DNA of 64,000 nt. It comes from Candidatus Peregrinibacteria bacterium CG10_big_fil_rev_8_21_14_0_10_55_24 (GTDB lineage Bacteria; Patescibacteriota; Gracilibacteria; Peribacterales; Peribacteraceae). Shown one piece after another: positions 13,125 through 63,296 of the stretch. A model generated the notes under the pieces. It saw only the letters and a program-made list of their open reading frames with translations. It made no database searches and was not told the DNA's origin. Where the stretch lies: positions 197,609 through 261,608 of the forward strand of contig PFDV01000005.1 of assembly GCA_002772745.1 (NCBI GenBank), read 5' to 3'. The position numbers and the translations under genes are program-made. Position 1 is the first letter of the stretch. Each line of letters begins with the position of its first letter.

Positions 13125-13192
13125 GCTCAGCAGGAAACACTAGTTTGGTGTTGGCTTAAATGCAATATCCAATGTTTGATTATGGTCCAGTG

Positions 13193-13260
13193 GTGGGTCA
13201 GGTGGGGATCGAACCCACGGCCAACCCCGCACGCGCTTACGCGTTGCGGGGCTGCTCTAC
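13193..13260 (-). pseudogene. 3' half of a tRNA-Lys-like copy broken by a palindrome
   Basis: On the minus strand, GTAGAGCAG is followed by a 27-nt palindrome (CCCCGCA...TGCGGGG arms), then TTGGCC and a T-arm, acceptor strand and CCA end identical to the intact tRNA-Lys at 13497-13571. The first 17 or so bases of the tRNA are missing; the GIY-YIG gene is joined in their place and its stop codon TAA lies within the palindrome. It cannot fold as a functional tRNA. Confidence 0.75.
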
Positions 13261-13482
13261 GATCCAGCGGGAAATATTCTTCGACTTTTTAATGCGAGTT
13301 TCCAGCGAACGAGCTTCCTCGAGAGAATGACAGGGAATGAATTTTTTCAATTCCCATTTCCCGATTCTTTTCGTTGTGTGCGTGTGTCCGTTTGCATGTT
13401 CAAGGAGCCTGCGATCCAAATCGTTTGTGCTACCGACGTAGTAACGGGTTCCCTGGAGAATATAGACGCCAATTTTTGCCAT
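13237..13482 (-). CDS. Small GIY-YIG nuclease next to tRNA-Lys
   Basis: An 81-residue single-domain GIY-YIG protein of the UvrC N-terminal/URI type. Visible catalytic pattern: VYILQ, then YYVGSTNDLDRRLLEH (GIY-YIG tyrosine, glycine and arginine), and the glutamate region LEEARSLETRIKKSK. The start ATG is 14 nt downstream of the tRNA-Lys CCA end and has a TATACT box 8 nt before it, so it has its own leaderless promoter placed directly after the tRNA. The last seven residues (VEQPRNA) are encoded by tRNA-derived sequence. Members of this family may cut branched DNA or act in homing; the target is unknown. Confidence 0.8.
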   Translation of the reverse strand: MAKIGVYILQGTRYYVGSTNDLDRRLLEHANGHTHTTKRIGKWELKKFIPCHSLEEARSLETRIKKSKNISRWIVEQPRNA

Positions 13483-13496
13483 GAGAACGGAGTATA

Positions 13497-13571
13497 TGGT
13501 GGGTCAGGTGGGGATCGAACCCACGGCCAAAGGCTTAAAAGGCCTCTGCTCTACCACTGAGCTACTGACCC
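13497..13571 (-). tRNA. tRNA-Lys(TTT)
   Basis: A complete cloverleaf on the minus strand: acceptor GGGTCAG/CTGACCC, D-arm GCTC..GAGC, anticodon loop CTTTTAA giving anticodon TTT, T-arm GTGGG-TTCGATC-CCCAC, and an encoded CCA. It is followed after 14 nt by the GIY-YIG gene and preceded by two broken tRNA copies. Confidence 0.95.
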
Positions 13572-13584
13572 GATGGAGGTAAAA

Positions 13585-13668
13585 GGAACAGAAAGGGATC
13601 GAACCCGGCGGCCAACCCCGCACGCGCTTACGCGTTGCGGGGCTGCTCTACCACTGAGCTACTGACCC
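13585..13668 (-). pseudogene. tRNA-like copy with palindrome in the anticodon arm (copy 1)
   Basis: 84 nt on the minus strand. The 5' part (GGGTCAG acceptor and D-arm) is identical to tRNA-Lys, the anticodon region is replaced by the 27-nt CCCCGCA...TGCGGGG palindrome, and the 3' part ends CTGTTCC without an encoded CCA. The T-stem pairs poorly (three mismatches) and the acceptor has a mismatch. An active tRNA is unlikely, although the anticodon stem GCCCC/GGGGT with a 19-nt loop could form. Confidence 0.65.
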
Positions 13669-13681
13669 GATGGAGGTAAAA

Positions 13682-13765
13682 GGAACAGAAAGGGATCGAA
13701 CCCGGCGGCCAACCCCGCACGCGCTTACGCGTTTCGGGGCTGCTCTACCACTGAGCTACTGACCC
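13682..13765 (-). pseudogene. tRNA-like copy with palindrome in the anticodon arm (copy 2)
   Basis: Same structure as the copy at 13585-13668 with one base change, which breaks one pair of the palindrome (CCCCGAA instead of CCCCGCA). That the change damages the hairpin argues that this copy is not under selection to fold. Confidence 0.6.
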
Positions 13766-21101: not shown

Positions 21102-21150
21102 GGGTGAACGATACCACAAATGGCCCCCTGTGTCCGGCGGGAGACTTTCT

Positions 21151-21170
21151 GGAGCGGGATACTGGAGCTT
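21151..21170. repeat. 20-bp direct repeat, left copy, with tRNA-Gly 3' end
   Basis: GGAGCGGGATACTGGAGCTT; the copy at 22179-22198 differs at one base. Together with the preceding T it contains TGGAGCGGGATA, the complement of the last 12 nt of tRNA-Gly(CCC), including CCA. The two repeats bracket about 1 kb holding one ORFan gene. This looks like attachment sites of an integrated element that used a tRNA 3' end. Confidence 0.6.
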
Positions 21171-21171
21171 C

Positions 21172-21990
21172 TTAGGAATCAGGTGACACTCTTTGTACTG
21201 TTCGCGTAACTTCGGGCAGCGGCACCTCAAGCGATTTAGACCAGTCCTTATCCTGTTGTGACGAACGGAATGACACAAATGACTGCATCCGGGGATGATT
21301 GCCCCAGTTGTCGAAAAGCGAATCCGGCACGTGCGTGCGAAGAATTATGCGCGGGGTTCGATCGTATTTCCAGTTCACAGTGTCCGTGTCATCGAGCAGC
21401 TGTTGAACCTGTTTACGGCTCATTGCACCTCGAATATTCGAAAGCAGGACGCCGGAAGCATGGTTGGGCATCTCAAATGCACTTGTGTCGAACCCGTTAT
21501 TTTTCAGATGAGCGACATCATGCAGCAACATGGTATCTGCATCGATGTTCCCGTAGGTTCCTTGTGGAGTTGTGAGGCTTATGCGGTGTCGGATGGATTC
21601 ATCAATATGTCTGCGATATCGTCGCATAAGGGTGACAAAGAGATTGTAGGTTCCCCCCAATCCGACTTGCTCGAAGATGCAATCGACGGCTGCGTCGATG
21701 GGTGGGCTGTGACGACGTCGATTTCCCGAGGGAGAGCCGATTCCTTTCAATGTGGTTTGGTGGAAGATGGCGCTCAGATCATTGCGGATTCCGGTCTCCT
21801 GAAGGACGATTGCTGTTTGGAGATCGAATGCAATTCCCGTGTTCCTATCGGTATCACGAATGCCGGGTAGTGTGTACTTCAGTTGAGTGAGGGATCGGCT
21901 GCGTTCGCCGCTGAAACCACCTGTTTCGCGTACTCGACGATACTCCGCATGAAATTCACTCCTCGGATATCTGACGACTTCTTGGGGCAT
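21172..21990 (-). CDS. ORFan protein of 272 residues
   Basis: A soluble, mostly polar protein (MPQEVVRYPRSEFHAEYRRV...) with no motif I recognise. A segment around residues 140-165 (TTPQGTYGNIDADTMLLHDVAHLKNNGFDTSAFEMPNH) looks like an alpha/beta core. The gene's stop is 1 bp from one copy of a 20-bp direct repeat, and its start is about 190 bp from the other. It lies in a lower-GC stretch. Possibly a recently acquired gene. Confidence 0.55.
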   Translation of the reverse strand: MPQEVVRYPRSEFHAEYRRVRETGGFSGERSRSLTQLKYTLPGIRDTDRNTGIAFDLQTAIVLQETGIRNDLSAIFHQTTLKGIGSPSGNRRRHSPPIDAAVDCIFEQVGLGGTYNLFVTLMRRYRRHIDESIRHRISLTTPQGTYGNIDADTMLLHDVAHLKNNGFDTSAFEMPNHASGVLLSNIRGAMSRKQVQQLLDDTDTVNWKYDRTPRIILRTHVPDSLFDNWGNHPRMQSFVSFRSSQQDKDWSKSLEVPLPEVTRTVQRVSPDS

Positions 21991-22080
21991 ATATGTATTT
22001 AAATCCTACAGATACCATTATGTCAATGGAGCTCTAGGCTAGAGGAAGTGAGAACCAGGCTCATCGGTTAGAACCGCAGA

Positions 22081-22180
22081 TGGCCGCGCCACGTGATTGC
22101 GCGCAGGGACGTAAAGCGACTATGTCGCCACGTCCCACGTAAAATTTGCTGCTCGCTTCGCTGCGCGCAATTTTACGTGG
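22081..22180 (-). repeat. 100-bp structured repeat abutting a tRNA-Gly 3'-end fragment
   Basis: Read on the minus strand it begins CCACGTAAAAT directly after the tRNA-like TATCCCGCT, so that CCA is shared. It contains an ATTTTACGTGG partner arm, a GCGAC-ATA-GTCGC hairpin and an outer arm CTGCGCGCAAT pairing with ATTGCGCGCAG. A second copy (43255-43353) is about 90% identical and has paired changes. The rest of the gap 21991-22338 holds no gene. Confidence 0.85.
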
Positions 22181-22198
22181 AGCGGGATAATGGAGCTT
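22179..22198. repeat. 20-bp direct repeat, right copy, with tRNA-Gly 3' end
   Basis: GGAGCGGGATAATGGAGCTT, 19/20 identical to 21151-21170. Its first bases are the tRNA-Gly 3' end and also touch the 100-bp structured repeat. Confidence 0.6.
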
Positions 22199-22338
22199 AT
22201 TCAGAACTAGAGTGTATCCTACAGAAGTGACTCTGCCCAATGTAGGTACAGGTGAATCTTGTAATAAGAATAATAATGTGATATTATATATATATCCTTA
22301 AAGAGGAACGAATATCGGGCCCAGGTGAATACGACGAT

Positions 22339-22986
22339 GTGGCTACATTGCCGCATTTTGCGTTTAGTAATAAGAAAAATGGCCATGTGATGAGTTGCAG
22401 AACACAAGATAGTGCCGGTGTTAGTGCAAATGTCATGGACGATGGTTCGATTGTCATTATGTATCAAATGAATAAACAGGAGGGAAAAGGTGGACAAGAA
22501 TGTTTGCGATGGCGAGTTAAGGTTGAGGAGAAACGAATCACAGGTCTCATCGGATATAACCATACAATTGGAAAACACAGAAACATGCAGCCTCCGATAA
22601 CGCTACAGGATGTGCTTTCTATGGAAACTGATGCAGGCGGAACAGTCCTCGACAGAATCGGTAAGGAGTTGTTTCTAATACCCAATGAGAATATCAGCCG
22701 GTTGAGTGATGTTAGTGGACAAGAAGTACGTTTGCTCCTTGCGAAGGATCAGCAAAAACACGAGAAGGAACTTGTCTCTGAAGTTATTGGTGATGTTGCT
22801 GATTGGCAACGTTTGGGTTATCAGCCAACACGCGAAGAATGGGATTCAATTGTTAAGAATTGTACTGAGACTTGGTACGGTAATGGGACACAGATTGGGA
22901 GGGCGACTAGGAAAAGGGTGATGGAAACACTGAGGAAGGTGGAGCCGAAACGGTCGTGGTGGGCACGGTGGGCATTGGGAGTGTAA
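22339..22986 (+). CDS. Hypothetical low-GC protein of 215 residues
   Basis: A mostly polar protein starting at GTG 22339, the only usual start in a frame open from 22282; an internal ATG at 22390 is the alternative. The C-terminus (KRSWWARWALGV) is basic and tryptophan-rich. No family recognised. Base composition is lower in GC than the flanking core genes and an AT-rich tract (22280-22296) precedes it, consistent with an acquired gene. Confidence 0.5.
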   Translation: MATLPHFAFSNKKNGHVMSCRTQDSAGVSANVMDDGSIVIMYQMNKQEGKGGQECLRWRVKVEEKRITGLIGYNHTIGKHRNMQPPITLQDVLSMETDAGGTVLDRIGKELFLIPNENISRLSDVSGQEVRLLLAKDQQKHEKELVSEVIGDVADWQRLGYQPTREEWDSIVKNCTETWYGNGTQIGRATRKRVMETLRKVEPKRSWWARWALGV

Positions 22987-23140
22987 AGAAGCCGTGTATT
23001 GGTTTTTTTCTCCAACATTATTCAGGGTGCGTGTTGGTAAAAAGGCGATCCAATAACTCAGGAATAGACACCCCAAGAGGACTTCTTCCGCTTACGTCGA
23101 AAAAGCGCCCGAAACCGAACGCTTACCTTACGAAGCCGGA

Positions 23141-23214
23141 TGGAGCGGGATACGAGAATCGAACTCGCGTCTCAAGCTTGGGAAGCTTGCATACTACCAC
23201 TGTACTAATCCCGC
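23141..23214 (-). tRNA. tRNA-Gly(CCC)
   Basis: Complete cloverleaf on the minus strand: GCGGGAT/ATCCCGC acceptor, anticodon stem CAAGC/GCTTG with loop TTCCCAA giving CCC, T-arm CGAG-TTCGATT-CTCG, encoded CCA. Its last 12 nt recur at 21150-21161 and 22178-22189. Confidence 0.94.
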
Positions 23215-23352: not shown

Positions 23353-23395
23353 TGCCCTTCGACAAGCTCAGGGCAAAATTCGCACTGCGAATTTT
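23353..23395. repeat. Two palindromes next to the tRNA-Gly(GCC) CCA end
   Basis: On the minus strand, the tRNA CCA runs directly into CAAAATTCGCA-G-TGCGAATTTTG, an 11-bp hairpin that uses the C and A of CCA (23375-23396). Next to it is TGCCCTTCGACAAGCTCAGGGCA (23353-23375), a palindrome of a widespread type. The TTTT in the first could serve as a weak terminator. Confidence 0.7.
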
Positions 23396-23471
23396 GGAGC
23401 GGATGACGGGAGTCGAACCCGCGACCTTCTCCATGGCAAGGAGACGCTCTAGCCAACTGAGCTACATCCGC
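23395..23471 (-). tRNA. tRNA-Gly(GCC)
   Basis: Complete cloverleaf on the minus strand: GCGGATG/CATCCGC acceptor, anticodon stem TCTCC/GGAGA, loop TTGCCAT giving GCC, T-arm GCGGG-TTCGACT-CCCGT, encoded CCA. Confidence 0.95.
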
Positions 23472-43181: not shown

Positions 43182-43257
43182 GCCACGGTAGCTCAGTTGG
43201 TAGAGCACAGGACTCATAAGCCTGGGGTCGCCGGTTCAATCCCGGCCCGTGGCACCA
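43182..43257 (+). tRNA. tRNA-Met(CAT)
   Basis: Complete cloverleaf: GCCACGG/CCGTGGC, anticodon stem CAGGA/GCCTG region with loop CTCATAA giving CAT, T-arm GCCGG-TTCAATC-CCGGC, encoded CCA. The paired first base (G1-C72) argues for elongator Met, or Ile2 with lysidine, not the initiator. Its CCA is the start of the 100-bp structured repeat. Confidence 0.93.
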
Positions 43258-43353
43258 CGTAAAATCGCGCGCAGCGAAGCGAGCAGAGATTTTACGTGGG
43301 ACGTGGCGGCGAAGCCGCTTTACGTCCCTGCGCGCGATCACGTGGCGCCGCCA
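43255..43353 (+). repeat. Structured repeat abutting tRNA-Met CCA
   Basis: Second copy of the element at 22081-22180. It begins with the CCA of tRNA-Met (CCACGTAAAAT) and has arm ATTTTACGTGG, hairpin GCGGC-GAA-GCCGC, and outer pairing ATCGCGCGCAG/CTGCGCGCGAT. Compared with the other copy, T-A became C-G in the outer stem and A-T became G-C in the inner hairpin, so the fold is kept. Confidence 0.85.
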
Positions 43354-43436: not shown

Positions 43437-43496
43437 ATGTATCACGTCTACCTCATCGAAAGCGAGCCGAAAAGCAGACTCCCCGAGCCCAAGTGA
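43437..43496 (+). pseudogene. Possible truncated GIY-YIG gene near tRNA-Met
   Basis: A 19-codon frame MYHVYLIESEPKSRLPEPK. The first nine residues match the start of GIY-YIG proteins (compare MYYVYVVQN at 63206), but the YIG half is missing. TACAAT lies 8 nt before the ATG, the same position as the TATACT before the intact gene at 13482. The rest of 43354-43726 holds no convincing gene. A chance match is possible. Confidence 0.3.
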
Positions 43497-62721: not shown

Positions 62722-62854
62722 AGTGAATGATATGGGGAATGTATTGATGGTTACAGTTCGTTAGAGAGCCAGCCTTCGCTCCGGGTGGCTAGCCAACCGT
62801 AGCTCGGCTCCTAGTGTAAGAATACCATGTGAAAACGCCGGAGCTACGGCCGGC

Positions 62855-62875
62855 AACCTTCGCCGAGCGAAGGTT
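62855..62875. repeat. Hairpin abutting the CCA end of the broken tRNA-Ile
   Basis: AACCTTCG-CCGAG-CGAAGGTT. On the minus strand it starts with the last bases of the tRNA copy's CCA (CAACCTTCG/CGAAGGTTG). Confidence 0.75.
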
Positions 62876-62978
62876 GGTGGGCGATGGAAGACTTGAACTT
62901 CCGACTTCGACATTACCTGCCTGCCGGCAGGCAGGTCAGTGTCGCGCTCTAACCATCCGCCTGGGCGGATAATCGCCC
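62875..62978 (-). pseudogene. tRNA-Ile copy with palindromes in the D-arm and anticodon loop
   Basis: 104 nt with acceptor arms GGGCGAT/ATCGCCC, CCA and anticodon stem identical to tRNA-Ile(GAT) at 63220. The anticodon loop is cut between A35 and T36 by the 20-bp palindrome CCTGCCTGCCGGCAGGCAGG, and part of the D-arm is replaced by TCCGCC-CA-GGCGGA. The T-stem has changed but still pairs (GGAAG/CTTCC). Not a working tRNA unless the palindrome is removed. Confidence 0.8.
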
Positions 62979-63219: not shown

Positions 63220-63296
63220 TGGTGGGCGATTCAGGACTTGAACCTGAGACCTCGACATTATCAGTGTCGCGCTCTAACCAGCTGAGCTAATCGCCC
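63220..63296 (-). tRNA. tRNA-Ile(GAT)
   Basis: Complete cloverleaf: GGGCGAT/ATCGCCC, anticodon stem CGACA/TGTCG, loop CTGATAA giving GAT, T-arm TCAGG-TTCAAGT-CCTGA, encoded CCA. Confidence 0.95.

Follow-up and report, generated by a model that had tools for sequence, protein, structure and literature searches.

Palindromes at tRNA CCA ends of Peribacteria are probably insertions of GIY-YIG mobile elements and their derivatives

Results and discussion

Palindromes and GIY-YIG genes at tRNA genes of the window

Peribacteria (Patescibacteria) are tiny groundwater bacteria. The stretch of DNA analysed here (the window; 64,000 nt, G000:C8:197609-261608) belongs to the genome of Candidatus Peregrinibacteria bacterium CG10_big_fil_rev_8_21_14_0_10_55_24 (G000; 1.29 Mb in 13 contigs), in which 47 of 47 tRNA genes encode their CCA end. 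According to a first-pass annotation, four palindromes of the window begin at tRNA CCA ends, namely at tRNA-Met, a tRNA-Gly 3' fragment, tRNA-Gly(GCC) and a broken tRNA-Ile. All four were found to be present, along with two GIY-YIG open reading frames (ORFs) behind tRNA-Lys and tRNA-Ile. The features are as follows (positions in the window).

13191..13250, minus strand: copy of the tRNA-Lys 3' part, downstream of the GIY-YIG ORF (long duplication)
13237..13482, minus strand: GIY-YIG ORF of 81 aa, starting 14 nt past the CCA of tRNA-Lys, with its stop TAA where the tRNA-Lys 3' copy begins
13497..13571, minus strand: intact tRNA-Lys (TTT) (ARAGORN)
22081..22180, minus strand: element A copy 2, at the tRNA-Gly 3' fragment; 91% identical to copy 1
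22178..22206, minus strand: tRNA-Gly(CCC) 3'-end fragment (TATCCCGCTCCA plus flank), with a repeat at 21150-21178
23374..23397, minus strand: perfect palindrome (C)CAAAATTCGCA-TGCGAATTTTG, beginning within the CCA of tRNA-Gly(GCC)
43182..43257, plus strand: tRNA-Met (CAT) with encoded CCA, the insertion target (ARAGORN, Rfam)
43255..43353, plus strand: element A copy 1, palindrome CCACGTAAAAT...CACGTGGCGCCGCCA, whose 5' CCA is the CCA of tRNA-Met (covariance model, E=2.8e-27)
43437..43472, plus strand: remnant of the linked GIY-YIG gene (MYHVYLIESEPK...), 84 nt past element A copy 1 (tblastn with clade proteins: 12 aa, 83% identity, E=6e-4)
62854..62877, minus strand: family-B palindrome CCAACCTTCGC...GCGAAGGTTG, starting at the CCA of the broken tRNA-Ile
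62878..62958, minus strand: second, broken tRNA-Ile copy (3' part) with the palindrome CCTGCCTGCCGGCAGGCAGG in its anticodon loop
62949..63206, minus strand: GIY-YIG ORF of 85 aa, starting 13 nt past the tRNA-Ile CCA; its stop TAG lies inside the tRNA copy (TAGAGCGCGACACTGA)
63220..63296, minus strand: intact tRNA-Ile (GAT) (ARAGORN)

The palindrome at tRNA-Met, referred to as element A, has the arms CCACGTAAAAT and ATTTTACGTGG, and its left arm runs from 43255. At the tRNA-Gly 3' fragment, the minus strand reads ...TATCCCGCT immediately followed by CCA and then by element A copy 2. The earlier proposal that the same element stands at both of these sites agrees with the 91% identity of the two copies, and the reported starts of the GIY-YIG ORFs 14 nt (Lys) and 13 nt (Ile) past CCA were confirmed.

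Sequence, fold and distribution of element A

Element A is a palindrome of 97-102 nt (CCACGTAAAAT...CACGTGGCRCNGCCA) with CCA at both ends, its 5' end being CCACGTAAAA and its 3' end CACGTGGCRCNGCCA. In an alignment of 33 copies, a cruciform-like fold of 25 pairs was kept in 97.8% of the cells, and 10 of the 25 pairs had changed on both sides. The covariation score of the element A alignment was 0.262, whereas shuffles gave 0.096 and slid versions no more than 0.09; element A has undergone double changes that preserve the palindrome. An alternative fold, in which the 5' arm pairs with the middle of the element, was also conserved. At the variable pairs of element A, G-T was found in 4 of 428 cells (0.9%, one conserved G-T column being excluded from this count), compared to 27 of 564 cells (4.8%) in tRNA stems. 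Since G-T is rarer in element A than in tRNA stems, these counts are suggestive of a palindrome that is selected or corrected at the DNA level. The idea that the variable base in ...CRCNGCCA depends on the tRNA was judged by eye and dropped.

The element was found in 45 of the 74 genomes of the family with a covariance model and in 33 of the 74 by a DNA search with the window copy. In a class sample of 353 genomes, matches occurred only within the family, and the element was absent from all 279 of the 279 sampled genomes of other families. A scan of 84,980 species genomes with an element A pattern returned matches only in Peregrinibacteria, Peribacteria and one Patescibacteria record. A viral origin was rejected, as the pattern had no match in viral contigs. 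Rfam 15 covariance models gave no credible match at element A besides the tRNA and its antisense.

Placement at the CCA ends of tRNA genes

The DNA search with element A gave five matches in G000, four of which start at the CCA of a tRNA (Met, Cys, Leu, Leu) and one at the 3' fragment of tRNA-Gly, and the covariance model added one short copy (C8:339693) without an adjoining tRNA. Overall, an intact tRNA CCA was the exact start of 59 of the 75 non-redundant copies having both termini (at least two rows of this 75-copy table are overlapping or antisense readings), while the chance that a position qualifies as an exact intact tRNA CCA is about 2 in 100,000. These 59 copies cover 14 isotypes (Leu 12, Arg 9, Met 8, Val 5, Ser 5, Ala 4, Cys 3, Thr 3, Glu 2, Trp 2, Gly 2, Gln 2, Phe 1 and Pro 1). 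Among the remaining copies, some lie at tRNA 3' fragments (Gly, Met), one is in a 5S rRNA gene (L060) and a few are at non-tRNA sites.

A genome-wide scan of tRNAs against shuffled sequence, as proposed with the first-pass annotation, gave clear enrichment at CCA. Perfect inverted repeats with a left arm starting from CCA and an arm length of at least 8 were present at 7 of the 47 G000 tRNAs, compared to 0.16 expected (maximum of 2 in 400 dinucleotide shuffles); with an arm length of at least 10, six were observed and 0.01 expected. The start positions of inverted repeats at G000 tRNAs peaked at CCA. Chance placement of the palindromes at CCA was rejected on the basis of the shuffles and of the 59 exact sites among 75. 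For 16 of the 47 G000 tRNAs, the gene's own 3' end with CCA was found to recur (11-33 nt including CCA) within 1.4 kb downstream.

Insertion and mobility of element A

An empty and a filled version of the same site were identified at a tRNA-Ala gene. The empty gene, in G000 (C8:415027), continues as CCA-TGACAACTTTGCACACTTTGATCGAGTTTGA, while the corresponding tRNA-Ala of G033 is followed by a 96-nt element ending in GCCA and then by the same flank (TGACAACTATGCACACTTTGATCGAGTTTGA). The pair, which comes from two different genera and has a matching flank of 31 nt, represents a clean 96-nt insertion between CCA direct repeats, and the inserted element has no ORF. Since the flank resumes directly after the element, tandem duplication of whole tRNA units was rejected for element A. 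Within a single genus (g6), identical tRNA-Thr genes carry the full element A (G008), its first ~20 nt (G007) or no element (G010). Four non-tRNA insertions follow the pattern X-[CCA element]-X'-CC(A), in which the left sequence is repeated at the right, with flank duplications of 54 nt in the 5S rRNA gene (L060), 41 nt (L067), 20 nt (L208) and 14 nt (L104). At tRNAs, in contrast, element A repeats CCA only, the long duplications being carried by its non-tRNA insertions and by other GIY-YIG clades.

Both presence or absence at the same site and target duplication were found, and element A is mobile DNA. It has inserted precisely at CCA and has moved between loci and between isotypes. Insertion at tRNA 3' ends, one of the reasons initially offered for the palindromes, was upheld by the tRNA-Ala pair, the tRNA-Thr genes of one genus and the duplicated flanks at the four non-tRNA sites. 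Because element A opens with the CCA of its target and closes with its own GCCA, the 3' end of the tRNA stays complete, and insertion is probably harmless for this reason.

A single clade of GIY-YIG nucleases is linked to element A

Among the first 38 element A copies, 8 precede a same-strand intact GIY-YIG ORF (27-216 nt further on) or the window remnant. To avoid circularity, the family was searched with the nuclease protein only, without reference to the palindrome. The 24 best matches shared 53-100% identity and were separated by a gap from the rest, which reached at most 49% identity apart from one 40-residue fragment. Element A, as located by the separate covariance-model search, lay directly upstream on the same strand in 23 of these 24 closest nucleases; the exception, in G013, had no listed palindrome. 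Of the 22 A-linked nucleases in a 75-protein GIY-YIG tree, 19 formed one group (support 100/93) and the other three fell in an unresolved neighbourhood; the loci of this tree were mostly chosen for containing element A, and the unbiased support is the agreement of the nuclease search with the covariance-model coordinates. The palindrome is tightly linked to one nuclease clade, which bears out the first-pass annotation in grouping the GIY-YIG genes with the palindromes.

The A-clade nucleases are single-domain proteins under strong purifying selection. Their PF01541 match had an E value of 1.8e-15 (57.4 bits compared to a cut-off of 22.6), the catalytic-motif residues VY, YIG, R, H and E were invariant across 22 A-clade sequences, and dN was 0.03-0.19 compared to a dS above 1.5, which is near saturation. 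Complete elements contain only a ~90-aa GIY-YIG ORF besides the palindrome. Most copies are ORF-less, given that 55 of the 75 showed no trace of the gene, and these copies look non-autonomous. Some genomes (e.g. G002 and G023) have several element A copies yet gave no match to the linked clade in the nuclease protein search. A duplication of the tRNA 3' part was sought behind A-clade elements at tRNAs and was found in 0 of 18. A scan of the window and of 18 related loci found no Rfam intron family at its gathering score, and a group I intron around the GIY-YIG gene was rejected for these loci.

Other GIY-YIG clades and palindrome families at the same site

The association with tRNA genes extends to other GIY-YIG genes. 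When genes were picked by Pfam alone, 22 of 47 lay within 300 nt downstream of a same-strand tRNA, compared to about 0.3 expected by our own estimate. Half of the non-A GIY-YIG genes linked to a tRNA (13 of 26) had behind them a duplicate of the tRNA 3' part that exceeded the 99% null. In elements of other GIY-YIG clades and of other palindrome families, 13-60 nt of the tRNA 3' part often recur on the far side. For several GIY-YIG ORFs (L118, L155, L122, L156, L125), the stop codon is located at the very start of this duplicated part, as though the target supplied the gene with its stop.

A further palindrome family, family C (CCACAGTTGAATTCGAGCTGA...), starts exactly at a tRNA CCA in 22 of 35 matches, some of which are counted twice. 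No linked GIY-YIG gene was found for it, and Rfam gave no credible match to it besides the tRNA and its antisense (one sub-threshold sRNA match overlaps the tRNA). Members of family C (L305, L330, L021 and the relatives L306-L334) have conserved purine-rich internal loops.

Proposed mechanism and alternatives

In our view, the palindromes found at the CCA ends of tRNAs are likely to be insertions of GIY-YIG mobile elements, and of palindromic derivatives of these, that target CCA. The ~96-nt element A inserts at CCA, and the CCA used is in nearly all cases the one encoded at the end of a tRNA gene, irrespective of isotype. A complete element comprises the palindrome and the directly following short gene for a single-domain GIY-YIG nuclease; most copies have lost the gene or never had it and behave as non-autonomous, MITE-like elements. 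We infer both that the nuclease catalyses cutting and insertion at CCA and what form the DNA intermediate may take: the enzyme would recognise the palindrome, whether in double-stranded, cruciform or single-stranded hairpin form, together with CCA and would nick there, joining or repair would finish the insertion, and ORF-less copies would be mobilised in trans. The CCA site is shared by related elements with GIY-YIG genes of other clades and by further palindrome families. A more specific reading, which we put forward tentatively as plausible rather than probable, is transposition by a single-domain GIY-YIG nuclease, and not by a DDE, HUH, serine or tyrosine enzyme, that moves the palindrome and its own gene; any tRNA gene would offer its structured 3' CCA end as a target, probably in the form of a DNA hairpin.

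Free-standing endonucleases of the SegB type spread by homing into homologous alleles, and we know of no palindrome and no precise CCA junction associated with them. If element A spread in a similar manner, a free-standing GIY-YIG homing endonuclease would cut tRNA genes, and repair of the break would copy its gene beside the tRNA and duplicate the tRNA 3' part, which would make the palindromes passengers of repair and not transposon ends. The position of GIY-YIG genes 3' of tRNAs, with a tRNA 3' copy directly behind the ORF and the stop codon at the start of this copy, would fit such a process, and PHROGs and NCBIfam label the domain as a homing or intron endonuclease. In T4-like phages, the genes of free-standing GIY-YIG relatives such as SegB likewise adjoin tRNA genes (PMC13096335). 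However, homology-directed homing does not explain a single palindrome family across 14 tRNA isotypes, 5S rRNA and non-tRNA sites, nor the ORF-less copy at the tRNA-Ala gene, which was inserted cleanly with CCA alone repeated. The spread of element A was not confined to homologous, element-free alleles, and we regard homing as an unlikely explanation for it.

REP sequences with their RAYT (TnpA-REP) proteins and the IS200/IS605 elements combine a non-autonomous palindrome, a single-domain nuclease that tracks it, a fixed short target on one side and an end sequence that matches it. Element A is likewise a palindrome with a tracking single-domain nuclease, but this nuclease is of the GIY-YIG and not of the HUH/Y1 type, and insertion takes place at the CCA end of tRNAs. 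With its fixed short left target (CCA) and matching right end, the palindrome recalls REP sequences, which Y1/HUH (RAYT/TnpA-REP) transposases mobilise in trans, and Y1 proteins occur in 53 of the 74 family genomes. Nevertheless, Y1 (PF01797) had no match at E<=1e-3 in G013 and G042 (99% complete) and in G033 (84%), all of which have element A, and a single weak match was obtained in G000. No Y1 gene was seen linked to element A, whereas the GIY-YIG gene is. A REP/RAYT system was rejected because the Y1 transposase did not track element A in the family-wide search, and we consider mobilisation by such enzymes very unlikely.

Insertion at the RNA level, raised in the first-pass annotation as reverse transcription primed from CCA, would mean that element RNA is copied into DNA by a reverse transcriptase that is primed at tRNA CCA ends or directed to them. 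The CCA end is the common denominator of the sites, and the variable flank duplications of 14-54 nt recall target-primed reverse transcription. We find this route scarcely credible, as GIY-YIG is the sole ORF of complete elements and the scarcity of G-U intermediates speaks for a palindrome at the DNA level. The least probable explanation, that the stable hairpins directly behind tRNA genes merely terminate or help to process the 3' ends of tRNA transcripts and use CCA by coincidence, conflicts with the lack of a T tract and of a predicted intrinsic terminator at 43255-43353, with the presence or absence of the element behind the same tRNA, with the occurrence of the same family in 5S rRNA and at non-tRNA sites and with the link of element A to a nuclease gene, and a role in 3' processing or termination, as raised in the first-pass annotation, is not supported as the primary explanation.

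Relation to known systems

Insertion of GIY-YIG mobile elements at CCA, the explanation that we favour, has partial parallels in other systems. The Ssn family consists of small single-domain GIY-YIG nucleases that act on NTS repeats in Neisseria and provides a precedent for site-specific single-strand cutting. By description, both systems pair a small single-domain GIY-YIG protein with a repeat; to our knowledge, NTS have neither been found inserted at tRNA ends nor been shown to be mobile. Like MITEs, element A is short, palindromic, multi-copy and mostly ORF-less, and has an end in common with the autonomous copy; unlike MITEs, it has no DDE transposase and targets the end of a structured-RNA gene. 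Integrative elements of tyrosine recombinases that insert at tRNA 3' ends restore the tRNA and leave a copy of its 3' end on the far side. The tRNA is restored here as well, and a far-side 3' copy is found in the non-A elements, but insertion is not isotype-specific, the elements measure about 100-350 bp and there is no integrase.

Non-intron insertion sequences that encode GIY-YIG have been described in CPR rRNA genes (PMC11270868). They are located at the top or base of stem-loops, and short ORF-less insertions (<200 bp) were left unexplained; the authors set GIY-YIG outside spread by homing and reported no 16S insertions in Peregrinibacteria, and their text makes no mention of tRNA, palindromes or hairpins (PMC11270868). 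The elements described here resemble these insertions in their occurrence in Patescibacteria, their non-intron GIY-YIG ORFs, their location at structured RNA genes and their short ORF-less forms. In contrast to that report, two genomes of the Peribacteria family do carry GIY-YIG genes inside their 16S rRNA genes (L163, L169). In a search of open-licence papers, which is weak evidence of absence, neither palindromes nor GIY-YIG elements were found described at the 3' ends of bacterial tRNAs, and a mobile element aimed at tRNA CCA ends appears to be undescribed so far.

If the proposed explanation is true, an isotype-independent and apparently harmless insertion site, the encoded CCA end, would join the known uses of tRNA genes by mobile DNA, and the abundant, unexplained small GIY-YIG genes and the short palindromes of Patescibacteria would have a common explanation. 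The model predicts an enzyme of ~90 residues that cuts palindromic or hairpin DNA at CCA. Such an activity would bear on GIY-YIG nucleases as transposases and could serve as a compact tool.

Additional structures at tRNA genes

Several other arrangements were observed at tRNA genes. Behind tRNA-Gly(CCC), the region 21150-23214 of the window contains two ~1-kb units, each terminated by a tRNA-Gly 3'-end copy. Their ORFs of 272 and 215 aa had no Pfam or PHROG match, and the units look like integrative cassettes of another kind. At 13584-13668 and 13681-13765, two tandem 97-bp tRNA-Lys pseudo-copies have the palindrome CCCCGCAACGCGTAAGCGCGTGCGGGG in place of the anticodon arm and an altered 3' end. 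Elsewhere in G000, tRNA-Tyr (C6:85897), tRNA-Glu (C8:1071), tRNA-Lys (C8:265428) and tRNA-Asp (C12:170304) are associated with inserts of ~100 nt that end in a copy of the tRNA 3' end; the arm before this copy is its perfect reverse complement, as if it had been mirrored into a longer hairpin.

Short palindromes (e.g. CCTGCCTGCCGGCAGGCAGG) were also found in hairpin loops, namely in the T or anticodon loop of tRNA copies and in the loop of element A (G000:C8:193143 and C8:260486; L068 and L095). That palindromes lie within loops, both in tRNA pseudo-copies and in element A, hints that hairpin DNA may be a target. Finally, the T stem of the broken tRNA-Ile copy (62878-62958) reads GGAAG/CTTCC, compared to TCAGG/CCTGA in the intact gene (63220-63296). 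Being different yet equally well paired, it suggests a separate origin of the copy rather than decay.
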